Shown: positions 4,688 to 18,628 of the stretch, in pieces | How the letters are laid out: each line of letters starts with the position of its first letter | Numbering within the stretch: the first letter of the stretch is position 1 | NCBI GenBank assembly: GCA_913044165.1 | Contig: CAJWMY010000006.1 | Location: 1 to 49,138, forward strand | Direction of reading: 5' to 3' | DNA from: an uncultured Puniceicoccaceae bacterium | Lineage (GTDB): Bacteria > Verrucomicrobiota > Verrucomicrobiia > Opitutales > Coraliomargaritaceae | DNA length: 49,138 nucleotides | Position numbers and translations under genes: made by a program | The notes under the pieces: model-generated | What the model was told of the DNA's origin: nothing | Seen by the model: the letters and a program-made list of their open reading frames with translations, nothing else | Databases searched by the model: none

Positions 4688-5821
4688 ATGACTTATTTAA
4701 TTTTTATTATAAATATTTTGCTTATATTTCAACTTTCACCATGTTTTTCAGAAGAAAGATTATCATGTTGTGATGCAGTCCCATCAAGATTTACTGCCAA
4801 TGATAATTCGCTAGCTGAGCCAAAAGACGATTATTCGAAAAATCCACAAACTGAAGGTATGGTTTGGATTCCAGCCGGAGAATTTACTATGGGCGGGGAA
4901 GTGGCAGATTTTATGCAAAAATGGCCCAAACAAGCACGCTCAAGAAATGACGAACGCCCTCTTCACTCTGTTAAATTAAGTGGCTTTTGGATAAGTGAAA
5001 CGCCTATAACTAATAAACAATTTAAAGAATTTGTATCTGCTACTGGTTATATAACGACAGCAGAAATAGCCCCTAAGCTAGAAGAGATTCTCCCTCTATT
5101 ACCTCCAAATACTCCGCCCCCTTCTGAAGAATTACTTGTTGCCGCATCCTTAGTATTCAATCCTCCTAAAGGTCCAGTTCCACTTAATAACGCACTTGTT
5201 TGGTGGGAATGGAAGGCTGGCGCAAGTTGGCAACGCCCAGAAGGGCCAGGTAGCTCTATTAATAATAGATTAGATCACCCTGTTGTTCATATTTCTTATT
5301 TTGATGCCGAAGCCTATGCAAAATGGAAAGGAATGAATCTACCAACTGAATCTCAGTGGGAATATGCTGCTAGAGGTGGTCTTGATAGTAAACATTTTGT
5401 ATGGGGAGATATTCCCTTATCTGAAGATGAACCAAATATAAACATATGGCAGGGAAATTTTCCAAATGAAAATACTTTAGTTGATGGCTTTCTAACGACA
5501 TCTCCCGTAAAATATTTCAAACCTAATGGATATGGCCTCTATGACATGTCAGGTAATGTTTGGGAATGGGTTGCCGATTGGTACCATATATCCGCCTACG
5601 AGCAAAGAATAAATTCTAATGGAGGCATAGTTAACCCTAAGGGTCCTGATAAAAGCTATGACCCTCAAGAACCTCACTTAAGCAAGAGAGTAATTAGGGG
5701 TGGTTCATTTCTTTGCAATGACTCCTACTGTTCTGGTTATCGTCCAGCCGCAAGAATGCGTAATAGCCCAGACACAAGCACCAATCACACTGGATTTAGG
5801 ATTGTAAAAAACATAGATTAA
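4688..5821 (+). CDS. Formylglycine-generating enzyme (SUMF1/FGE family)
   Basis: A 377-residue protein with a hydrophobic signal segment (residues 1-22), so probably exported. The FGE-sulfatase domain begins at GMVWIPAGEFTMGG (57-70). It includes LPTESQWEYAARGG (218-231), SGNVWEWVADWY (288-299) and the C-terminal RVIRGGSFLCNDSYC segment. Cys343 and Cys348 match the two catalytic, copper-binding cysteines of human and bacterial FGE, so this looks like a true FGE rather than one of the many paralogues lacking the pair. FGE oxidises the Cys of C-x-P-x-R in sulfatases to formylglycine with O2. All five sulfatases in this window carry that motif and a signal peptide, which makes them likely substrates. 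An extra Cys pair (27-28) sits just after the signal segment. Confidence 0.92.
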   Translation: MTYLIFIINILLIFQLSPCFSEERLSCCDAVPSRFTANDNSLAEPKDDYSKNPQTEGMVWIPAGEFTMGGEVADFMQKWPKQARSRNDERPLHSVKLSGFWISETPITNKQFKEFVSATGYITTAEIAPKLEEILPLLPPNTPPPSEELLVAASLVFNPPKGPVPLNNALVWWEWKAGASWQRPEGPGSSINNRLDHPVVHISYFDAEAYAKWKGMNLPTESQWEYAARGGLDSKHFVWGDIPLSEDEPNINIWQGNFPNENTLVDGFLTTSPVKYFKPNGYGLYDMSGNVWEWVADWYHISAYEQRINSNGGIVNPKGPDKSYDPQEPHLSKRVIRGGSFLCNDSYCSGYRPAARMRNSPDTSTNHTGFRIVKNID

Positions 5822-5836
5822 CCTCAAAAATTAATG

Positions 5837-5854
5837 TATTGCACTTTTATGCAC
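5837..5854 (+). promoter_or_regulatory. Putative LacI-type operator A
   Basis: TATTGCACTTTTATGCAC, containing the symmetric core TGCA-N6-TGCA. The identical 18-mer occurs on the minus strand at 9501-9518, in both cases exactly 20 bases upstream of an ATG (5875 and 9480). It begins TG and ends CA over 14 bp (5840-5853), the usual layout of LacI-family operators. The regulator is inferred to be the LacI protein at 16836. Confidence 0.6.
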
Positions 5855-5874: not shown

Positions 5875-8556
5875 ATGAAAATACCTCAGCTAATTGCCCT
5901 AACCTTATCACTATCTCTAAATGCTATCGCCAATACAGACATTTACGTAAGTTATGGAGAATTCTCGCCCCCTTTTTATCAATTCTATTCTGATTCAGAT
6001 GGAACTATTCCATTCGATATAATTGGAGAAAATGCGACAGAATCACTTGTTGTTGGAGAAACCTATACCTTTAGAAGAATTGACGAGGCAGAAACTCATC
6101 CATTTGCACTACAAACTGGCGCAACTAGCACTAGTTCAATTAGTGGAGGCTCTAGCATAATTGGAACACAAACTTTAGTTGTTAATATAAATGATGATCA
6201 GGATTTAACTTACATTTGTACTGCCCACTCATTTATGACAGGCACCATAAATGTCACAGCAAGTTCATTAGCATCAAATCCAAAAGTTGGAACTAGCGAG
6301 CTATTTAGTAGTACAACTAACGACGATTGGCCTTATGTTATTACAATTTCACCTGCAGGCACTGCTGGGTCAAGCCACCAAGTTATGATAAACATTACTA
6401 GCCTGCCTGAAGGAGGCGCTAATATCCGTTGGCCTAGAACTGTAGCTAATGGGAATTGGTACATGGGAGGAAATGGAACTACCCTATCCGAAGGAATAAA
6501 TACCCTAACTCTTCCAGAAGTAGCTTTTGATAGAACAGTAAAAATGCAATTTAGTTCCGGAAATGTAGAATTCTCTAGCTTAACTAGAGATGGAACCACA
6601 TTGTATGGAGATGAAGGTTACTCTTTCGTAGCTCCTGCTGGCTCTGTTTTAGCAAGTACAATTTTCGATGGTACAGGAAATAGTTCATGGCCATATTCAC
6701 TTACTTCTGTTATAGCAGATGATGCTGATAGCAATGCTCAACAAGTCTTTACGCTTAATATTACAGAATTGCCCGAAGGCGGTGCATCATATTCAATCGC
6801 TAAAACAGTTGCTAACGGAAATTGGGACTCTGGAGCAGCTCAAGCTTTGGCATTAGGAGAAAACACAATCGTAGTTGCAGGTGTTGATTTTCTTAGATCT
6901 GTAAAGCTTAGAATATCTAGTGATATTGCTGTTGATGCACTTAGTGCAAATGGAGTTTATGCGCTTGGTGAGAGTCCATCAGACGACGATATTACTGTTG
7001 ATGCAGACTCTGTCCGTGCAAGTTCTTTGTTTGATGCTTCTGGGAATAGCGGATGGCCATATACACTTACTGCTGTTACTTCCGATGATGGAGTTGATAG
7101 CCAATCTCAGCAAGTTTTCAATCTAAACATTACATCACTCCCTAGTGGTGGAGCTCAGTATTCTGTTTACAAAACAACATCTAATGGAAATGACTGGGTT
7201 GGAAATGGGATCGATCTTCAAGAAGGAGAAAATATAATTACCATTGCTGGAGTAAGCTTTGACAGATCTGTAAAGCTTAGAATATCTGCTGATGTAGCTT
7301 TAGATAATATTAGTATCAACAATTCTCCCGTCTTTGGAGATTCACTAAGTATTCCTATTGATTCTGTTGCTGCCTCATCAGTATTTGATCAGGGAGATAA
7401 TGCGGCATGGCCCTTAGCTATAAACGACCCAGACTTTGGTACCGGTGGAATTGCAAGTAACATTCCGCAACATTTTTTATTAAATATTACAGCACTTCCA
7501 TCTGAAGGTGCAAAGTATTCTATTGCAAAAACAGTCGAAAACGGAAATTGGGATTTTAGTGCAGCGCAAGATTTAGTATTAGGAGAAAACCTTATTTCTG
7601 TTGATAGAGTTGATTTCCAAAGAAGCGTTAAATTAAGACTCTCTACTGATGTTGCTATTGATGCTTTGAGTGTTAACGGCACTTACTCAGTTGGTACATC
7701 TCCTGTGCACCGAATTGACCCCCCTGGCTACTCGACTACAATTCCAACAGCTACAGGTTGGTTTAATGGTTCTCCAAATCCTGCTTATCCCCTTGTACTT
7801 AATAGAAATATTGTTACTCCCGCTGACGGCCCATTAAGCCAAACTAGCCAAATCTATGTAATAAATGTTACAGATTTACCTCCTGGAGGAGCAAAAGCTT
7901 CTATAGCAAGAACTGTGGCTAATGGGAATTGGGATATAATAGAAAAAGATTTAGTAATAGGATTAAACTTTATGCATCTTAGAGCAGTTGACTTTGATCG
8001 TTCTGCTAAATTCAGATTATCTACTCCTCATATCGCATTTGACTATATAGCATACGAAGGTGGCGACGAATTAGGTGATGATAGATTCGAAAGAGGCAAA
8101 GGTGGACTTATAAATTATACACCTGATGGCTTGTGGGATGATAATGACTCTGATGGAATTTATAACTTCATTGATGCGTTCCCGGAAGATTCTAGCGAAT
8201 ACATTGATGCCGACAATGATGGCGTCGGGGCAAATTCCGACCCAGATGACAACGATTCTGAGAATCCAAATCCATCAATAACTGAATCACCTAAGATGAG
8301 TGTAATAGTTGGTGACAACCACTTCTTATTCTTATCTTGGACTCCAATTACAGGAACTTCATATACTTTAAAATCAGCTGAAAATCCTGGTGGTCCTTAC
8401 ACAACCGTTATATCAGATGCTCAAAATGAGTTAGATGGTCAAAATAGATTATCACTAGGACCCATATCCGGTGAAGGAGTATTTGTTGGACCTAGTTCTA
8501 TACCTCTTGGTTCAGAATATAATTTCAAGGGCTTCTTTAAAGTAGAGGTTGAATAG
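5875..8556 (+). CDS. Secreted cupredoxin-like protein with five tandem repeats and a calcium-type motif
   Basis: The start at 5875 is preferred over an upstream in-frame ATG (5839) because a clean signal peptide follows (MKIPQLIALTLSLSLNAIA) and the upstream ATG lies inside an operator-like site. The mature protein starts with a cupredoxin-like domain (residues about 20-128): THPFALQTG supplies a His and YICTAHSFMTGTI gives Cys115-x2-His118-x2-Met121, a type 1 copper pattern. Five divergent repeats of about 110-125 residues follow, each with WPY, NIT.LP.GGA, K/RTVANGNW, GEN and F.RSVK.R.S elements. Then come an Asp-rich thrombospondin type 3-like stretch and a C-terminal segment (SYTLKSAENPGGPY) typical of secreted Verrucomicrobiota proteins. 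Function is unknown; copper binding and surface or glycan interaction are inferences. It directly follows the FGE gene and ends at a terminator. Confidence 0.85.
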   Translation: MKIPQLIALTLSLSLNAIANTDIYVSYGEFSPPFYQFYSDSDGTIPFDIIGENATESLVVGETYTFRRIDEAETHPFALQTGATSTSSISGGSSIIGTQTLVVNINDDQDLTYICTAHSFMTGTINVTASSLASNPKVGTSELFSSTTNDDWPYVITISPAGTAGSSHQVMINITSLPEGGANIRWPRTVANGNWYMGGNGTTLSEGINTLTLPEVAFDRTVKMQFSSGNVEFSSLTRDGTTLYGDEGYSFVAPAGSVLASTIFDGTGNSSWPYSLTSVIADDADSNAQQVFTLNITELPEGGASYSIAKTVANGNWDSGAAQALALGENTIVVAGVDFLRSVKLRISSDIAVDALSANGVYALGESPSDDDITVDADSVRASSLFDASGNSGWPYTLTAVTSDDGVDSQSQQVFNLNITSLPSGGAQYSVYKTTSNGNDWVGNGIDLQEGENIITIAGVSFDRSVKLRISADVALDNISINNSPVFGDSLSIPIDSVAASSVFDQGDNAAWPLAINDPDFGTGGIASNIPQHFLLNITALPSEGAKYSIAKTVENGNWDFSAAQDLVLGENLISVDRVDFQRSVKLRLSTDVAIDALSVNGTYSVGTSPVHRIDPPGYSTTIPTATGWFNGSPNPAYPLVLNRNIVTPADGPLSQTSQIYVINVTDLPPGGAKASIARTVANGNWDIIEKDLVIGLNFMHLRAVDFDRSAKFRLSTPHIAFDYIAYEGGDELGDDRFERGKGGLINYTPDGLWDDNDSDGIYNFIDAFPEDSSEYIDADNDGVGANSDPDDNDSENPNPSITESPKMSVIVGDNHFLFLSWTPITGTSYTLKSAENPGGPYTTVISDAQNELDGQNRLSLGPISGEGVFVGPSSIPLGSEYNFKGFFKVEVE
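6290..8085 (+). repeat. Five protein-coding tandem repeats of about 115 residues
   Basis: Approximate units: 6290-6651, 6652-7017, 7018-7371, 7372-7752 and 7753-8085. Each opens with a short F-D/N...WPY block, then NIT/NVT.LP.GGA, then NGNW or NGND, and closes with an R-S-K core near LRIS. Units 2-4 are most alike; 1 and 5 are more diverged, the usual picture for internal duplication. Confidence 0.85.
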
Positions 8557-8581: not shown

Positions 8582-8609
8582 AAAGGCGAGTAATACACTC
8601 GCCTTTTTT
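8582..8609. terminator. Bidirectional intrinsic terminator
   Basis: A 9-bp stem (AAAGGCGAG with CTCGCCTTT), 7-base loop and a T-tract. It serves the repeat protein on the plus strand and overlaps the stop codon of the minus-strand gene ending at 8608. Confidence 0.85.
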
Positions 8610-9480
8610 ATTTAACTTTAACGCCAACAGCATCTTGAATACTATTTTTGGAAACTCTTATTTCATCAAACCTTACATTAGTTGTATTAAAAACAAATGG
8701 AGTAAGAATTATGCCTTTATACAAACTACGTTTTGTAGACTTTAAATCTTTTCTACCAAACTGACAAACGTTGTTCTCTAAAGAACCTGGCTCAGCTAAA
8801 TTAAATAACTTTTCATCAAAATTTTTACTCGAAAAATAATCGACTTGCTTAGAATTTAAAACCCAAAACGATAATGATACATTTCCCTCTTCTCCAGTTT
8901 TGGGTAAACCACTCATTTTCCAAATAACAAGGTATTCTTCACCATTAACACAAGGGGAACCTTCAACAACTTTATAAGTTTTACCCTTTGCTCCTATCAT
9001 TCCTAATTTACCACCCCACCTCTTAGGGCAAATTGCAAATAATCCGTTTCTCACAGACATATCGCTAGTGTTAGGGAGCGCAAAAATCATACCCACTACC
9101 GTATCCTCAGTCATAAATCCTGGGACTACACGGAAACTACCGAAAACTTCACCTTCAAAGGCTTGATCGGTTTGCCTAAACATATAGCCGTTCGCGAAAA
9201 AATTTTGATTTTTTCTTTCACCCTTTACAACGGCAGAACCACCTGAAGAAATCAGAGGACTAAATGAAATATCCTTTTTAGATAAAACAGCATTCCCGTT
9301 ACCAATTTGCCAAGTACTCATCCAGCCAATGCTTGATTCACCTCCCAATGAACCAAACTCTCCAAAGGGCAGATTTTTTTTTCCTTTACAATCAAAGCCC
9401 TCATATAAATCTAGACCATTTAAAAGTGTTGATACAGAAAGTAGTGTAATAATGAAAATTAATAATTTTTTAAATTGCAT
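8608..9480 (-). CDS. Secreted protein of unknown function, possible concanavalin A-like fold
   Basis: The start at 9480 is chosen over 9516: it gives a signal peptide (MQFKKLLIFIITLLSVSTLLNG), whereas the longer reading begins inside the operator. About 290 residues. The mature N-terminus reads LDLYEGFDCKGK and continues with a Gly-rich stretch and GWMSTWQIGNG, the pattern of many secreted Verrucomicrobiota and Planctomycetota proteins predicted to have a jelly-roll/LamG-like fold. The C-terminal VRFDEIRVS strand fits that fold. I do not recognise catalytic residues. It is divergent from the TonB receptor gene across only 54 bp holding the putative operator, so co-regulation is likely. It may bind glycan, but this is a guess from context. 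Confidence 0.75.
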   Translation of the reverse strand: MQFKKLLIFIITLLSVSTLLNGLDLYEGFDCKGKKNLPFGEFGSLGGESSIGWMSTWQIGNGNAVLSKKDISFSPLISSGGSAVVKGERKNQNFFANGYMFRQTDQAFEGEVFGSFRVVPGFMTEDTVVGMIFALPNTSDMSVRNGLFAICPKRWGGKLGMIGAKGKTYKVVEGSPCVNGEEYLVIWKMSGLPKTGEEGNVSLSFWVLNSKQVDYFSSKNFDEKLFNLAEPGSLENNVCQFGRKDLKSTKRSLYKGIILTPFVFNTTNVRFDEIRVSKNSIQDAVGVKVK

Positions 9481-9500: not shown

Positions 9501-9518
9501 GTGCATAAAAGTGCAATA
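9501..9518 (-). promoter_or_regulatory. Putative LacI-type operator B in divergent control region
   Basis: Minus-strand copy of the 18-mer TATTGCACTTTTATGCAC. It sits in the 54-bp gap between the secreted-protein gene (start 9480) and the TonB receptor gene (start 9535). For the plus strand it would lie within the spacer of a weak promoter candidate (TTGATA at 9491, AATAAG at 9515, 18-bp spacing), consistent with repression by blocking polymerase. Confidence 0.65.
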
Positions 9519-9534: not shown

Positions 9535-12500
9535 ATGAAAAGATTAATACTTTTTCTACTATCTACTTACCTAATAGCATCAATCAGCCCTGCCCTTTTT
9601 TCAGAGGAGGAAGATGAGAATGTTCACGTTTTATCTGATTTCGTAGTTTCGGAGAGTGATGACAAAGGTTACTATTCAGCTAATACAACTTCTGTCACTA
9701 AAGCTAATGAGCTCATAAAGAATACCCCTGTAAATGTTACCGTTATAAATGAAGACTTGTTGAGAGATTTAGGTATAAATACAACCGAAGACCTGGCACA
9801 AGTATCAGCATCGATTGATACTGACCCAACTTCTTATAGCTTAGATCAAATTAGGATTAGAGGCTTTAGGAACACATTTACTCGCTTTAATGGTTTTAGA
9901 AGAACATTAGCAAGAGATGGTTATAATATTTCTCGCTATGATATTATTAAAGGTGCAAATAGTTTAATTTTTGGGCAAGCCTCCCCCGGAGGAACTGTAA
10001 ATGCAATACCCCTTATTGCTAATTTTAGAAAAGATTCAGGTGCACTAGTTTTAGCTTTAGGTAATAAAAATTACGAAAAGAAGGTATTTAATTATAACAA
10101 AATACTTAGCGATAATTTAGCAGCAAGATATATGCATGTTGACCATTACCAAGAGTACGAGCATGCCTACAAAAACTATGACTTAGAATCTAAAACCATA
10201 TCAATTAATTTTAGACCGGATTCAACGAGTTCATTATTGGGGCATTTTGAAAAAGTTGATTCCAAATTTAGTTTCCCTACATTAGCGCTCAGAGATGATA
10301 CTAAAGTCGATGACTCAGTTGTTGCTCTAGGAACTAATCGATATGGCAGCCAACAAGATGATGGAACTAATGCTACTAATAGTTGGGCTTATGATGGATA
10401 CCTTAGTAGTGCTGAACATCGAATTATGAGACAAGACTTTCAAGTTCCATTTACTTCCGAATGGCTATCCTTTGCACCGCAAGCTTTAATTGATAACTTA
10501 ATATCGCATACACAATACAATCTAGATCCTAATGGGCTTACCGGAGATCCAAATTTAGATGCTTTAAATAATCAATTTAATCAAAGCTACGGACCTAATT
10601 CCGGAATCGTAAATACGAATCCAAACGAACCTTTTTTGCCAATTTTTCCAGCTGAAAGTGACGAATTTGTTGGTGGTGGAAGGAAGATAACAGGCGCAGA
10701 ATTCTTAAAAAATTATTACAAATTAATTAATGAGTCTAATTACGGTTACCAATCAGGACCTGATAAAAGTAAAACCGTGTCCGGATATTTTTCTACTTTA
10801 GATTATCAAAAAGTACTTAATAATAATTTAGAGCTAAGTTTATCCCTCAATTATCAAGAACAAAAAGGAGAAAATTTTGCTAGAGATTCCCATGGTATAT
10901 CCAGAGTTGTGGATAGTTTTTCCGTACATAACAAAAATTGGCCCAAACCTCAAGAGCACCTTTTTTATACCGTAAATGAGAATGGTGTTGATGAGCAAGG
11001 TGGAAGCTTTAGCCCTGTTACGAATATTAGTTTTGATCCAAATACTTTTCAGGTAACCGGAGAAAGGGATTCTGATGCTATTGATGATTATATTGATTGG
11101 CATACTCAATTCTACCCAGAACCTTTTATTAGAACATATTGGACAAAAACAAATGGAGAAAGCGAAAGATTAGGCGCTAAAGCTACACTCCTATATGAGA
11201 AAAATCTCAATATACCTGTCATAGGTAAATCAGAAAATAAATTCTTACTTGGTATTGATTACCACGATTTAAATAAGGATGAAAAAAGATATGATCAGAT
11301 ACCCGATTACACAAGTAACCCAGAAGATCCTATGAACCCATTAAATCCCGATGGTTCCTATTTAGGACCATATGAATCAGATTTAAGAACACGATCTGAG
11401 TGGGTAACCTCAAATAGCATTACAGATAGAGAAAGAGCATTTGATTATATTTCTTTACGAAAAGGATTTGGACCCGAACGTTCTATAATTAGGCTAAATA
11501 ATAAGATTGAGACTGACTTTATTATTTTAGATGAAAATGGTGATTTTATTGAAACAGTTAAAACTGGATATATAAGAACGGGATTAGAAAACCTAGAGGA
11601 TTCTAAAAAACCAAATACTGAAGCAGCTAATTATAATAGCGTCCTATTCAATGACGGTGAAGGCGAAAGAATTGTTTCTGCGAAATGGACAGAATCAGCA
11701 AAATTATCAGCTAATATAGAAACTAATAGCCAATGGTTAGCCTCTCAAAGCAGTTTTTTCAAAGGTAGGCTAAGAACCCTTCTAGGTTTAAGATATGATG
11801 AAATTGAAGTTGAATCCACAAACCGGAAAACTTCACTCTTTGGTGATGGAAGTTCAAATTTAACGTATAAAGATGAAAATGGGAATACTCAAAGTTTTGG
11901 AATAGATGATATAAACCAAAAAGATCAAAATAAATACACTGAATATAGTCCAAGCGTTGGAGGATTATTTTGGTTAAAAAATAATTTTGGAATATTCGCA
12001 AATTATGCAGAATCTATTCAAACCCCATCAGGACAAGATAGGACCCCGCTAGGAACTTTAGTTGCTCCAGAAATTGGTAAAGGTCTTGAGATTGGCTTTA
12101 GGTATTCAAGCAATGACAACAAGATAGATGCCCAACTAGCATATTATTCAATTGAAAAAGAAAATGATGACGAATTCAAATACTCTAACGTTCAATTGAA
12201 TCAAATTTATGACTTCGATGTTTATAAATTCAAGAGACCATACATATACAGAATAAATACAGACTCCGAGGGTAATGTTCTAGGAGGTACACTAAATAGC
12301 TCAACGTTACCTGGAAGAAGGTCGGATGGAGACGTAACACTGTCTAAAGGTGTTGAGCTAGATGTAAATTATAACCCTAATAAAAACATCACTTTCATCA
12401 CCTCTATAAATCATAATATTGGGAATAAAATCTTAAAGGTTCATCCCAAGGTTCAAGATTGGCTTGATGAAAATAATTATAATATAAATGACCAATTTGA

Positions 12501-13077
12501 ATTATATGGGAGGCCAAGTATTCGGGCTTCTGTTACTGGGAAGTATTCTTTCCGAGGAGGCAAACTCAGAGGTCTTTCGTTTGGAATTGCCCAGCATTTT
12601 AGATCGTCTAGTAAATTAGGAAAATACAGCTTTCATTATGGAACAGAATCATTTACCGATCAAAATGGAAATGGAGTTTACGACCAAGGGGAAGCATTTG
12701 ATGACTTAAATAATAACACATCATGGGATAATGAATTTTTATGGAATAAAAATTCATTAGTTAACCAACCTAATATTAATCATGATCCTAATTCGGATAA
12801 TCCCCTCCACCAAAGGAATGAAAACGTTTTAGATGCCCATGAGCAAAATATGATTAGCAAAACAAGCACACATTATTTAGAATCAGACCCTGAACATAAT
12901 ACCATTGGATTTATTTCATATACAGGTAAGTTTGACAAAAAGGACAAAAAGATACCTTATTCAATAAATTTCCGAATTAATAATTTATTCGATAAAAGAC
13001 AATTTATAAACAGAGGAACTTATGGATATTTTAGGGAATCTAGATCCTACAACATATCTGCCAAAATTATGTTCTAA
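9535..13077 (+). CDS. TonB-dependent outer-membrane receptor
   Basis: A 1180-residue protein with a signal peptide (residues 1-23). It starts directly with the plug domain: a TonB-box-like segment VLSDFVVSES (31-40), then NTPVNVTVINEDLLRDL and IRIRGFRNTF, followed by the conserved GANSLIFGQASPGGTVNAI segment near residue 140. The remainder alternates polar strands and long loops as in a 22-strand barrel and ends SYNISAKIMF with the terminal Phe needed for outer-membrane assembly. There is no SusC-type N-terminal carboxypeptidase-like domain, as usual for Opitutae receptors. The sulfatases directly downstream (14-bp gap) suggest uptake of sulfated oligosaccharides. The ExbBD-TonB operon at 24019-29678 could energise it. 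Confidence 0.93.
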   Translation: MKRLILFLLSTYLIASISPALFSEEEDENVHVLSDFVVSESDDKGYYSANTTSVTKANELIKNTPVNVTVINEDLLRDLGINTTEDLAQVSASIDTDPTSYSLDQIRIRGFRNTFTRFNGFRRTLARDGYNISRYDIIKGANSLIFGQASPGGTVNAIPLIANFRKDSGALVLALGNKNYEKKVFNYNKILSDNLAARYMHVDHYQEYEHAYKNYDLESKTISINFRPDSTSSLLGHFEKVDSKFSFPTLALRDDTKVDDSVVALGTNRYGSQQDDGTNATNSWAYDGYLSSAEHRIMRQDFQVPFTSEWLSFAPQALIDNLISHTQYNLDPNGLTGDPNLDALNNQFNQSYGPNSGIVNTNPNEPFLPIFPAESDEFVGGGRKITGAEFLKNYYKLINESNYGYQSGPDKSKTVSGYFSTLDYQKVLNNNLELSLSLNYQEQKGENFARDSHGISRVVDSFSVHNKNWPKPQEHLFYTVNENGVDEQGGSFSPVTNISFDPNTFQVTGERDSDAIDDYIDWHTQFYPEPFIRTYWTKTNGESERLGAKATLLYEKNLNIPVIGKSENKFLLGIDYHDLNKDEKRYDQIPDYTSNPEDPMNPLNPDGSYLGPYESDLRTRSEWVTSNSITDRERAFDYISLRKGFGPERSIIRLNNKIETDFIILDENGDFIETVKTGYIRTGLENLEDSKKPNTEAANYNSVLFNDGEGERIVSAKWTESAKLSANIETNSQWLASQSSFFKGRLRTLLGLRYDEIEVESTNRKTSLFGDGSSNLTYKDENGNTQSFGIDDINQKDQNKYTEYSPSVGGLFWLKNNFGIFANYAESIQTPSGQDRTPLGTLVAPEIGKGLEIGFRYSSNDNKIDAQLAYYSIEKENDDEFKYSNVQLNQIYDFDVYKFKRPYIYRINTDSEGNVLGGTLNSSTLPGRRSDGDVTLSKGVELDVNYNPNKNITFITSINHNIGNKILKVHPKVQDWLDENNYNINDQFELYGRPSIRASVTGKYSFRGGKLRGLSFGIAQHFRSSSKLGKYSFHYGTESFTDQNGNGVYDQGEAFDDLNNNTSWDNEFLWNKNSLVNQPNINHDPNSDNPLHQRNENVLDAHEQNMISKTSTHYLESDPEHNTIGFISYTGKFDKKDKKIPYSINFRINNLFDKRQFINRGTYGYFRESRSYNISAKIMF

Positions 13078-14578: not shown

Positions 14579-16780
14579 ATGAAAGGGTTCACTTTATATT
14601 CCATCATATCCATAACATGTCTTGCGCATGCTTTAATAGCTAACGCAACACCACCAAACATCATAGTAATAATTTCTGATGATCAAAGGTGGGACGCTAC
14701 CGGCTATATGCAATCACGATTGGCAACAGACGAGAGGATTGCAAGATTCCCATGGCTAATAGGGACCACTCCAAACCTAGACCGACTATCGTCCGAAGGT
14801 ATACATTTTGATAATGCTTTTACTGTTTTCTCAACATGCTCTCCATCCAGAGCAACAATGCTAACTGGTCTTTATCCTCATTTACATGGTATCACTGATA
14901 ACCAAACTCCCCTGCCTGCTGATTCTGTCACTTACGCAAGTTTACTAAAAAATAATGGCTATGCGACAGGCTATTTCGGTAAATGGCACCATGGCAGACA
15001 AACTGATCGTCCAGGATTTGATAATGTTGCTACTTTTCATGGACAAGGCTCCTACTTTGAAACTGAATTTTATAATGGGAACGATGTTCTGATAAGAGAA
15101 ACTGGACCCAATGAATGGGTTGATGATGTATCTACCGACTATGCTATTAATTTCATTAACCAAAAAACAAATGAAGGCATTCCATTTCTATTAGTTTTGG
15201 GATTTAAAACTCCTCATCAACCATTTGATCCTCCATCAAGAACAACTTCAATCTATGATGGTGAGTCAGCACGAGATGTCCCTAATTTAAATTCACCGCC
15301 CCCAGGTCAAATAATTAATGAAAACTCAAGTAATTATGCTGTCCCGCTTAGAAAATATATGTCAACTATTGCTGGAATTGACAACTGTGTTGGGCGTGTG
15401 ATGGATCAACTAGAGTCTCTAAATATAGTAAATAATACTGCGATTATTTACTTAAGTGATAACGGATTTTTTAGAGGGGAACATAAACTTGGAGATAAAC
15501 GGGCTCCATATGAGGAAAGCATCAGGATTCCTTTTATAATTAAATACCCTAACGAACAAATCTCTCCCACTAATGTTAGTCAAATTGCTCTTAATCTAGA
15601 CCTCGCGCCAACTATTTTAGACATAGCTGGTTTAAGTATACCAGAGAATATGCAAGGCTTGAGCTTGCTTCCTATAATTAAAAATGAAGTTCTAAACACT
15701 TGGAGGAATTACTTCTTTTACCAATATAATCATGACCCAGAATTCCCTGTAGCTAAAGCTAGACCATACATTGCACTTCGTCACGAAAATGGTCTAAAGA
15801 TAATAGAATATGAAGAAAACAAATCATGGTCCGAATTCTTTGATACAGAAATCTCCACTGACCCGTATGAAATCAATAATCTTTTTACTAATTCTGAAAT
15901 GTCAGATCAAAAGGAGCAAATGCAAAATATTCTCTTACAAGAAATGGCTTCAACGGGATTCTTAAAAACAGAGGGAATTTCTTCAACAGATACAGAGAAC
16001 TTTGCTAAAATTAGTTTAGGGAAAAATTATAATTTTTCGATACTTACTTCGTCAGATTTAAACACATGGTCATATGTCGACCAAGTACAAGGCAATGGCA
16101 GCTTAACCAACTACTCTTTAACTTCTCCTACCAACAATGGCTTTCAGATAATCGTAAACGGAAATTCCAACGACTATGGCATAATTAATTCTAATTTTGG
16201 AACAGCACAAAATTTCCAAGGCGAAGAATTAATCATAGGGGCACCTAATCCTTGGGATGGAGTTACTGGCGGTGATGTAATTTTTATCTTTGAAATACCA
16301 GTTGAAGAAGTAGATTTTAATTTAAACAAAATAGAGCTTGAGTTTACAGCTAGAAGAAAGTGGATTCCTAGTTCAATATTATGGAACGCAAATCTTGAGA
16401 CTCTTGGAATCTATAATAATACAAATCCATTCTCAACTTACTCTCAATACACTTTAAATAACCCTAACATAATCATGTTAGAAGAAGCTATATTAACTCC
16501 TTCTTTCCCTAATGTTGATACCCTTGTTCAGTCTAATAACAATATACTGATTAATTATATAAAAGATTTTTATACTAATAACCAAAACTATGCGGGAGGA
16601 AAATATATCTTTCTTAGAATTAGTGCGGATAGAGATCCTGAAACTCAAGCCTACAAATTTTACTTACAATCATCAAATACATCACAACAGGCAAACAAAC
16701 CTAAATTAAAATTTTACTACAACGAAATTAGTGAAAAACCTGATGAATTATTTTATAAAGTAATATATGGCCAAAATTAG
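14579..16780 (+). CDS. S1-family sulfatase with long C-terminal extension (sulfatase 2)
   Basis: A 733-residue protein: signal peptide (about 1-23), sulfatase domain to about residue 460 with SDDQ near 33, maturation motif Cys87-Ser-Pro-Ser-Arg91, FGKWHHG and SDNGFFRGEHK. The extra 270 residues are not part of the sulfatase fold. They start with a SILTSSDLNTWSYV segment like the 'YTLEYSTDLxxW' tails of Verrucomicrobiota secreted proteins. A beta-rich region (about 16200-16740) follows that resembles DNRLRE-type domains; this match is by eye only. The extension may bind glycan or anchor the enzyme. It lies 47 bp after sulfatase 1 and is probably in the same operon. Confidence 0.9.
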   Translation: MKGFTLYSIISITCLAHALIANATPPNIIVIISDDQRWDATGYMQSRLATDERIARFPWLIGTTPNLDRLSSEGIHFDNAFTVFSTCSPSRATMLTGLYPHLHGITDNQTPLPADSVTYASLLKNNGYATGYFGKWHHGRQTDRPGFDNVATFHGQGSYFETEFYNGNDVLIRETGPNEWVDDVSTDYAINFINQKTNEGIPFLLVLGFKTPHQPFDPPSRTTSIYDGESARDVPNLNSPPPGQIINENSSNYAVPLRKYMSTIAGIDNCVGRVMDQLESLNIVNNTAIIYLSDNGFFRGEHKLGDKRAPYEESIRIPFIIKYPNEQISPTNVSQIALNLDLAPTILDIAGLSIPENMQGLSLLPIIKNEVLNTWRNYFFYQYNHDPEFPVAKARPYIALRHENGLKIIEYEENKSWSEFFDTEISTDPYEINNLFTNSEMSDQKEQMQNILLQEMASTGFLKTEGISSTDTENFAKISLGKNYNFSILTSSDLNTWSYVDQVQGNGSLTNYSLTSPTNNGFQIIVNGNSNDYGIINSNFGTAQNFQGEELIIGAPNPWDGVTGGDVIFIFEIPVEEVDFNLNKIELEFTARRKWIPSSILWNANLETLGIYNNTNPFSTYSQYTLNNPNIIMLEEAILTPSFPNVDTLVQSNNNILINYIKDFYTNNQNYAGGKYIFLRISADRDPETQAYKFYLQSSNTSQQANKPKLKFYYNEISEKPDELFYKVIYGQN

Positions 16781-16835: not shown

Positions 16836-17897
16836 ATGGAAAATGAGTTTAAAAAAGTAAGTCAGCAAAAAATTGCAGATAACTTAAATATCTCTCGAAC
16901 AACTGTATCTCGATGTTTCACTAACCATAGTGGGATTAATTCACTCACTAGGGCTCAAGTCTTTGCTGAAGCTAAAAGACTAGGATACGATTACTTTGAA
17001 ACAAAAACTGAAAAGAAGATAACCCAAAAAAGAATCGGAGTTTTAATATGTACAGATCATGAAGAAATTAACCAATCTCATGACCTTAGTCCTGGATTTA
17101 ATTTGATGCCAGGCATTACAGAATTTGCCCTAATAAACGATATGCAGGTAGATACTAAAATCATATCCTCATCTCTTGAGAAGAATTCCAAAGAATTCAT
17201 ATCTCTTATAAAAGATAATAAAAAGAACTGGCAAGGCATACTACTGATATACCCATTTAAGCCTTTATTAATTAAAGAGCTGAAAGCTAATTTCCCATGT
17301 GTTTCCTTGGTAGAGCAATTTGGTTATGATACAATAGACTGTGTTGATGTTGACCATTCAAGGGGAATTTCCCTACTAGTAGACTCATTAATTGAAAACA
17401 ATCACAAAAGGATTGGTTTCTTAACTCGAGCGTATGCAGTAGATGCATGTTGGTCACACAGAAGATTCAGCGCCTTTAATGATAAACTGATAAGGGAAGG
17501 TATACCATTAAATAAATCTGATGTTGTTAATATATACCCTGACAGATTATTAAAACCCGACGAATCAATTTCAGAAGCTATAAAACAAACAAAAAATGGT
17601 GTCACTGCTTGGGTCTGTGCGGCAGATCACATTGCATATGACCTTATAGATAATCTTGAAAGAGAAGGGATAAGTGTTCCCTATGATGTCTCAGTAGTTG
17701 GATTTGATGGTATGACACCAAAGGATAGTCATAAACATAAACTCTTTAGTATTAAACTTCCTCATAGAGCTATAGGATACTATGCTACAAAGCGTTTGTC
17801 TGAGATTATTAGAAATCCTTATGACAAATCACAATTAATTTCAATAAAAGGCGAAATTATGCCAGGTAATACGATTCATAATGCCATTAATGTCTAA
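16836..17897 (+). CDS. LacI/GalR-family transcriptional regulator
   Basis: A 353-residue regulator. The helix-turn-helix at residues 9-28 (QQKIADNLNISRTTVSRCF) is typical LacI family, followed by the hinge region and a periplasmic-binding-protein-like effector domain beginning at KRIGVLIC (about 65). Motifs such as ENNHKRIGFLT and WVCAADHIAYDL fit sugar-sensing members. It presumably senses an intermediate of glycan breakdown and binds the TGCA-N6-TGCA sites at 5840, 9502 and 17930; this assignment rests on proximity and operator geometry. It lies 55 bp behind sulfatase 2 and 116 bp before the promoter-bearing PEP-CTERM gene. Confidence 0.93.
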   Translation: MENEFKKVSQQKIADNLNISRTTVSRCFTNHSGINSLTRAQVFAEAKRLGYDYFETKTEKKITQKRIGVLICTDHEEINQSHDLSPGFNLMPGITEFALINDMQVDTKIISSSLEKNSKEFISLIKDNKKNWQGILLIYPFKPLLIKELKANFPCVSLVEQFGYDTIDCVDVDHSRGISLLVDSLIENNHKRIGFLTRAYAVDACWSHRRFSAFNDKLIREGIPLNKSDVVNIYPDRLLKPDESISEAIKQTKNGVTAWVCAADHIAYDLIDNLEREGISVPYDVSVVGFDGMTPKDSHKHKLFSIKLPHRAIGYYATKRLSEIIRNPYDKSQLISIKGEIMPGNTIHNAINV

Positions 17898-17928: not shown

Positions 17929-17943
17929 GTGCATAATTGTGCA
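17929..17943 (+). promoter_or_regulatory. Putative LacI-type operator C
   Basis: GTGCATAATTGTGCA, matching 13 of 15 bases of the plus-strand reading of site B (GTGCATAAAAGTGCA). The core TGCATAATTGTGCA is palindromic at 12 of 14 positions. It lies 6 bases upstream of a -35 hexamer. Confidence 0.6.
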
Positions 17944-18013: not shown

Positions 18014-18628
18014 ATGAAAAATCTATTATTAATTACACTAACTTTCCTTACTTTCTCATTAGCTAATGCTGGAACAGTAAGTCTTGGACACAATCAATTC
18101 GGAACACCTTTCGATAAAGCAATAGGTACTACTTTTAGCCCTCCAGCTAATGGTTCTACAGTAGATGGACTTTCATTAGCCATGGCTGATGTGTTCCAAC
18201 AAGCTACAGTTCAAGGTGTAGCAGGTACAAGTGTTTACAAAAGAGGACATGGTAACCCAGCAAATTCAAATGCTTGGGCTTTCTCATCTGGTCCACAATA
18301 CTTCTACTTAACACCTGATGCTTCTTATAGTGCTGGCGGCGAGTGGAGAACACTCAAAACAGCAGCAAATGGTACTAGTTATGCTTTTGGCGGTTGGACT
18401 GCTATCAACGCAGGAGTTGAAAATTCAATTGGTATAGCAGTTGGAACTGAATTCCTTAGACAAGTTGGCGTGCAAGTTCGTGGTGTTAATGGCTTTACTA
18501 ATTTCGGACATTACCAACAAACATCTCATGGTTACAGTACTCTTGAGGTAGTTCCTGAACCATCTACATACGCACTGCTTGCTGGATTAGTAGCATTCGT
18601 ATTTGTTGCAATCAAACGCAGAAAATAA
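18014..18628 (+). CDS. PEP-CTERM sorting-signal protein
   Basis: A 204-residue exported protein: signal peptide MKNLLLITLTFLTFSLANA (1-19) and a C-terminal sorting signal, VPEPSTYALLAGLVAFVFVA followed by IKRRK. The PEP motif, transmembrane helix and basic tail define substrates of the exosortase/EpsH system, which moves and processes proteins at the cell surface, often with exopolysaccharide. No exosortase gene is in the window. The mature part is Gly-, Ser- and Ala-rich, beta-type, and unfamiliar to me. A strong promoter with an operator-like site precedes it and a terminator follows, suggesting a highly inducible surface protein tied to the sulfatase locus. A role in holding or binding the glycan is inference. 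Confidence 0.88.
   Translation: MKNLLLITLTFLTFSLANAGTVSLGHNQFGTPFDKAIGTTFSPPANGSTVDGLSLAMADVFQQATVQGVAGTSVYKRGHGNPANSNAWAFSSGPQYFYLTPDASYSAGGEWRTLKTAANGTSYAFGGWTAINAGVENSIGIAVGTEFLRQVGVQVRGVNGFTNFGHYQQTSHGYSTLEVVPEPSTYALLAGLVAFVFVAIKRRK

Follow-up and report, generated by a model that had tools for sequence, protein, structure and literature searches.

The 49,138-nucleotide window, which is the whole contig of a draft genome (1.26 Mb, 87% complete), encodes a secreted protein of 893 residues that joins a cupredoxin head to five copies of an unnamed domain, termed the repeat below (Table 1). The gene lies in a conserved locus with a conserved operator, the copper ligands of its head are invariant among homologs, and the repeat recurs in frame inside enzymes of several classes. 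We favor, with modest confidence, an accessory role for the secreted protein in a LacI-controlled locus for sulfated-glycan utilization, in which glycan-binding repeats would hold a copper head near the substrate. The repeat itself is probably an insertable, glycan-binding beta-sandwich module, as its genomic context and its insertions suggest. Neither the family libraries nor the solved structures searched cover this domain family, which is tied to enzymes degrading laminarin-type and sulfated algal polysaccharides, whose breakdown is a large marine carbon flow.

Table 1. Positions in the window of the cupredoxin/repeat gene, its domains, and the features of the surrounding regulon.
Feature	Position	Strand	Basis
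Secreted formylglycine-generating enzyme (FGE)	4688–5821	+	Pfam FGE-sulfatase 2e-79; PDB 6s07 E 1.7e-71
Operator TGCACTTTTATGCA, 21 bp before ATG of 5875–8556	5840–5853	.	
Secreted cupredoxin and five-repeat protein, 893 aa, ATG start	5875–8556	+	
Signal peptide MKIPQLIALTLSLSLNAIA, cleavage after AIA	5875–5931	+	read by eye
Cupredoxin domain, residues 22–132	5938–6270	+	NCBIfam amicyanin E 1.1e-4; ligand conservation
Cupredoxin ligands His75, Cys115, His118, Met121	His75 6097–6099; Cys115 6217–6219	+	
Repeat 1, residues 144–245	6304–6609	+	profile match
Repeat 2, residues 264–365	6664–6969	+	profile match; modelled, pLDDT 91
Repeat 3, residues 386–488	7030–7338	+	profile match
Repeat 4, residues 504–607	7384–7695	+	profile match
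Repeat 5, residues 630–734	7762–8076	+	profile match
Asp-rich, thrombospondin-3-like calcium-type stretch, residues ~751–800	8125–8274	+	sequence
C-terminal beta-type domain	8290–8553	+	comparison with other proteins carrying it mid-protein
Second operator copy, between 8608–9480 (-) and TonB receptor	9502–9515	.	conserved in G001 (L087 13078)
TonB-dependent receptor of the regulon	9535–13077	+	Pfam Plug 1.8e-10
LacI-family regulator	16836–17897	+	Pfam Peripla_BP_3 2e-19; syntenic in G001
Third operator copy, before PEP-CTERM gene, beside LacI gene	17930–17943	.	conserved in G001 (L215 1882)
PEP-CTERM protein with diverged repeat copy (about 18212–18526)	18014–18628	+	E 5e-6

Against Pfam, nothing in the 893-residue protein scores above the cut-offs. 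The Asp-rich calcium-type motif noticed in an earlier, sequence-only reading of this DNA is present, and similar stretches occur in other secreted proteins of the same genome (contigs C27 and C16). That reading had also assigned a secretion-type C-terminus, which did not hold up: the last ~90 residues resemble a domain of the form SW...YTLxSS...KFFRL that sequence comparison also places mid-protein in other proteins, and they are thus a domain and not a signal at the terminus. Syntenic orthologs of the whole gene are found in two congeners, in G001 (L087:9364–11805) and, as a partial copy at a contig end, in G006 (L088:7566–8733).

The five tandem repeats, previously proposed by eye, are genuine. 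A profile built from the family matches them with domain E-values of 1e-23 to 1e-35, the best E-value in 1000 shuffles of the repeat region is 0.8, and the copies share 35–58% identity. Their proposed novelty is likewise borne out, as no Pfam or PDB family covers them and searches of Pfam, PHROGs, and the PDB gave no sequence family match; the bacterial Ig-like family Big_13 reaches 18.7 bits with the whole protein and 14.2 bits with one repeat, short of the Pfam gathering score of 27. The AlphaFold model of repeat 2 is a confident all-beta domain, in which the polar residues K53, T54, N57, R84, and K87 are strongly conserved. In a Foldseek comparison of this model with the PDB, no structure was found at E ≤ 0.001; toxin binding components came out on top, as beta-sandwich matches with TM-scores of 0.34–0.44 to the query. 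The nearest single-domain fold is the carbohydrate-binding module CBM80 with a TM-score of 0.38–0.45, which, like the scores for all CBMs, lies below the 0.5 threshold.

The profile finds the repeat in relatives from the window's own family as well as at 76 loci in other genomes, mainly marine Flavobacteriales with some Cellvibrionales/Porticoccaceae, so that copies occur in Verrucomicrobiota, Bacteroidota, Pseudomonadota, and one phage. The search in other Verrucomicrobiota that had been suggested returned the repeat in only 3 genomes of a sample of 388, none outside the window's family, and this sparse occurrence speaks for transfer between phyla. Matches from "Euryarchaeota" metagenome-assembled genomes group among those of Flavobacteriales, and an archaeal presence is not claimed. 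The repeat lies in or beside genes for sulfatases, GH1, GH5, and Glyco_hydro_cc enzymes. Within the window, the diverged copy in the PEP-CTERM protein is backed by its G001 ortholog, which matches the repeat with an E-value of 4.7e-15.

In several enzymes the repeat interrupts the catalytic domain itself. In sulfatases of L104, L106, L019, L021, and L022 it is inserted in frame after the motif GQGKYFG, whereas the window sulfatase at 14579–16780 is free of an insert at the corresponding site (15087–15118); in the relatives of this enzyme, the Pfam sulfatase domain is split around the inserted repeat. A GH5 cellulase with a CBM_4_9 domain (L103:9200–11755) carries the repeat directly after YLGEFGVDN, near the nucleophile strand, and in Glyco_hydro_cc enzymes of L063, L030, and L031 the repeat again splits the Pfam domain. 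A beta-helix enzyme family of Flavobacteriales has it at one site in six members and at another in two, while 11 have it at neither (carriers at one of the two sites include L129:7545–9818, L111:3451–5655, and L179). The six enzymes sharing the first site form one clade with a support of 100, and the two kinds of insert separate in a domain tree that has few columns and weak support. As this one family offers two insertion sites and, like the sulfatases, insert-free relatives, the effect of module insertion is directly testable. Further, long secreted proteins (L166, L185, and L135) carry the repeat within their own short repeats, and it also lies in the middle of a 500-residue protein of a 92-kb viral contig (L193:2455–3954) that has no PHROG or Pfam match. 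Together, the insertions allow a tentative view of the repeat as a plug-in beta-sandwich of ~100 residues that entered catalytic cores of marine bacteria and a phage protein by several independent in-frame insertions, each of which may provide a new glycan contact, and that spread over three bacterial phyla.

Two other explanations of this mobility were discarded. An intein is incompatible with the tandem copies and with the lack of a conserved catalytic Cys/Ser and of His-Asn ends on reading the sequences. For a recent mobile DNA element, domain-sized recent jumps were sought by DNA-level comparison and none was found. The sole near-identical repeat pair (98.6%, L120) belongs to a longer segmental duplication and not to a domain-sized jump, and the spread of the repeat thus looks like old domain shuffling.

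The N-terminal head displays the Cys115-x2-His118-x2-Met121 pattern read earlier from the sequence, to which we add the fourth ligand, His75 (in ETHPF). The head thereby has the ligands of type 1 cupredoxins in the order His, Cys, His, Met, and these four residues do not vary across 14 homologs, a count that includes the window's own, at identities down to ~30%. The match to NCBIfam amicyanin (TIGR02657) amounts to 22.6 bits against a curated 110 bits; the head stays below the curated thresholds of both Pfam and NCBIfam, and Pfam Copper-bind matches 6 of the 14 homologs weakly. The AlphaFold model of the head is poor (pLDDT 50), and Foldseek with this weak model retrieves mostly plastocyanin, amicyanin, and pseudoazurin at E-values of 0.07–0.24, which lends weak support to a type 1 fold. 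A profile search against the PDB yields mainly antibody noise; azurin and amicyanin also appear among the matches. The invariant ligands support a type 1 copper-like domain with a complete, conserved ligand set, which would be expected to bind copper.

Several of the cupredoxin homologs are short and end in PEP-CTERM-like tails. Some are found in other glycan loci, and two carry the domain twice: the 291-residue secreted proteins L089:3441–4316 and L090:4856–5731 contain the motif (HPF...CxxHxxM) in duplicate and adjoin a GPH-type sugar transporter. At L090, a LacI gene is also present, with the same operator as in the window (12143). Additionally, a cupredoxin-like domain with His, Cys, His, and Met retained occurs in marine phage tail proteins (L186–L192). 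One would not expect a copper site in a virion, and our literature search found no paper linking cupredoxins with marine phage tail fibers.

The surroundings of the gene comprise a sodium/solute symporter, a GH1 glucosidase, FGE, a TonB receptor, a LacI regulator, the PEP-CTERM protein, and five sulfatases. The order transporter–GH1–FGE–cupredoxin/repeat gene–TonB receptor–sulfatases is kept in G001, and on the short contig of G006 the order transporter–GH1–sulfatase–FGE–cupredoxin/repeat gene is kept as far as the contig reaches. The operator suspected from the sequence is real: TGCAYNNTTATGCA occurs three times in the 1.26-Mb genome, always in the window, and is conserved in congeners, including the copies before the orthologs of the cupredoxin/repeat gene (G001, L087 9306; G006, L088 7533). 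The LacI regulator is its presumed binder. Two of the three sites serve repeat-domain proteins. The operator copy upstream of the TonB receptor is common to the receptor and a divergent gene (8608–9480, minus strand) for a secreted, LamG-like-sized protein with no family match, whose homologs adjoin sulfatases and receptors (L087 and L105). Of the glycan role considered earlier, the glycan-related setting and the shared control with the locus are thus supported.

The three operator sites at this locus, with their conservation in congeners, and the gene order kept in G001 and within the G006 contig argue for the glycan-locus reading. When the glycan of the locus is present, LacI, as the presumed binder, would release both the TonB receptor gene and the cupredoxin/repeat gene. 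The product of the latter would be secreted and might stay at the cell surface, where its five modules would most likely bind the locus glycan or cell-surface glycans, weakly one by one and strongly through multivalency. Bound modules would then hold the amicyanin-like type 1 copper domain near substrate, receptor, and sulfatases, and the domain would most likely be copper-bound and serve in electron transfer or copper storage. Among titles and abstracts on Verrucomicrobia, cupredoxins, and polysaccharides, apparently nothing addresses the present system.

Glycan binding is suggested by the position of the module in and beside glycan-enzyme genes and inside catalytic domains, and by a confident all-beta model whose nearest single-domain fold is CBM80; the missing Foldseek hit at E ≤ 0.001 and the low CBM TM-scores count against it. 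The repeat might instead be a structural spacer or adhesin module of Ig/FN3 type that has no glycan specificity and forms a surface stalk that holds either the cupredoxin or the cell. In marine Flavobacteriales, very long secreted proteins carry tandem copies at their N-terminus, which would fit such a stalk, and the long T9SS-type repeat proteins of Bacteroidota could be adhesins. The weak Big_13 similarity points the same way, and Ig-like and FN3 domains have a known role as mobile decorations. We regard this as rather unlikely, since its insertion into catalytic domains in three enzyme classes, together with the strongly conserved polar residues, suggests more than a spacer. For the copper head, the invariant ligands have to be set against the poor model and the missed curated cut-offs. 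The head might instead be a worn-down, copper-free beta-barrel with a binding function like that in phage tails. The domain is indeed common to marine phage tail fiber families (PHROG 677, E 6e-10), but four ligands that stay invariant in bacteria and are kept in the phage copies, while the remainder diverges, make a loss of copper improbable.

The sequence-only reading had also raised copper delivery to FGE, whose gene indeed lies directly upstream at a gap of 53 bp. FGE needs copper and a reductant (PMC12123546, PMC4505483), the latter in turnover (PMC12123546), and the cupredoxin could in principle supply Cu(I) or the two electrons needed per turnover. The encoded FGE (267 bits with Pfam) has both active-site cysteines (GGSFLCNDSYC), aligned with 6s07; the draft genome, 87% complete, yielded no second copy, the cupredoxin gene follows this only FGE gene in three congeners, and all five window sulfatases are of the Cys-type (C-x-P-S-R) that needs FGE. 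However, beyond the two syntenic congener copies, no FGE was found on the examined contigs of the cupredoxin homologs, including the one in another G001 glycan locus (L090). Moreover, one of the three operator sites stands before the cupredoxin/repeat gene and none before the FGE gene, and the former therefore has a control site of its own, separate from FGE. With the domain also present in phage tails and no paper found that links FGE with a cupredoxin, a service to FGE of either kind is very unlikely. Copper delivery, for which the neighborhood in three congeners speaks, is not supported and was rejected as the main reading for missing co-occurrence; electron supply is at least on a par with it and more readily tested. 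As a candidate reductant of bacterial FGE, a cupredoxin encoded beside a lone FGE gene is unlikely but can be tested.

Among known systems, the head comes closest to the type 1 cupredoxins of the amicyanin and plastocyanin/azurin kind, with which it shares the His...Cys-x2-His-x2-Met ligand pattern. It differs from them in scoring far below curated cut-offs, in an extra conserved N-terminal strand (IYV..G....YYNFY), and in being fused either to repeats or a PEP-CTERM tail. The repeat resembles CBM80 of Ruminococcus flavefaciens Cel5A (5aos/5aot/5fu2) as a small all-beta domain accompanying polysaccharide-degrading enzymes, but the structural match has E-values of about 0.005–0.02 with no sequence similarity found, and the repeat forms tandem arrays or interrupts catalytic cores. 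A parallel in arrangement, with no relation shown, is the ancillary domain X448 of CE20 esterases, an in-frame beta-sandwich within the catalytic domain of a polysaccharide-active enzyme that helps to form the substrate site (PMC12313940). In contrast to X448, which belongs to one enzyme family, the repeat spans multiple enzyme classes and phyla and also occurs in a phage. Finally, the Ig-like/FN3 decoration domains of phages are mobile beta-sandwiches on or in virion proteins and proposed binders of host carbohydrates (PMC8718954); the repeat is likewise inserted in one phage protein, yet it has no family-level match to Ig-like models.
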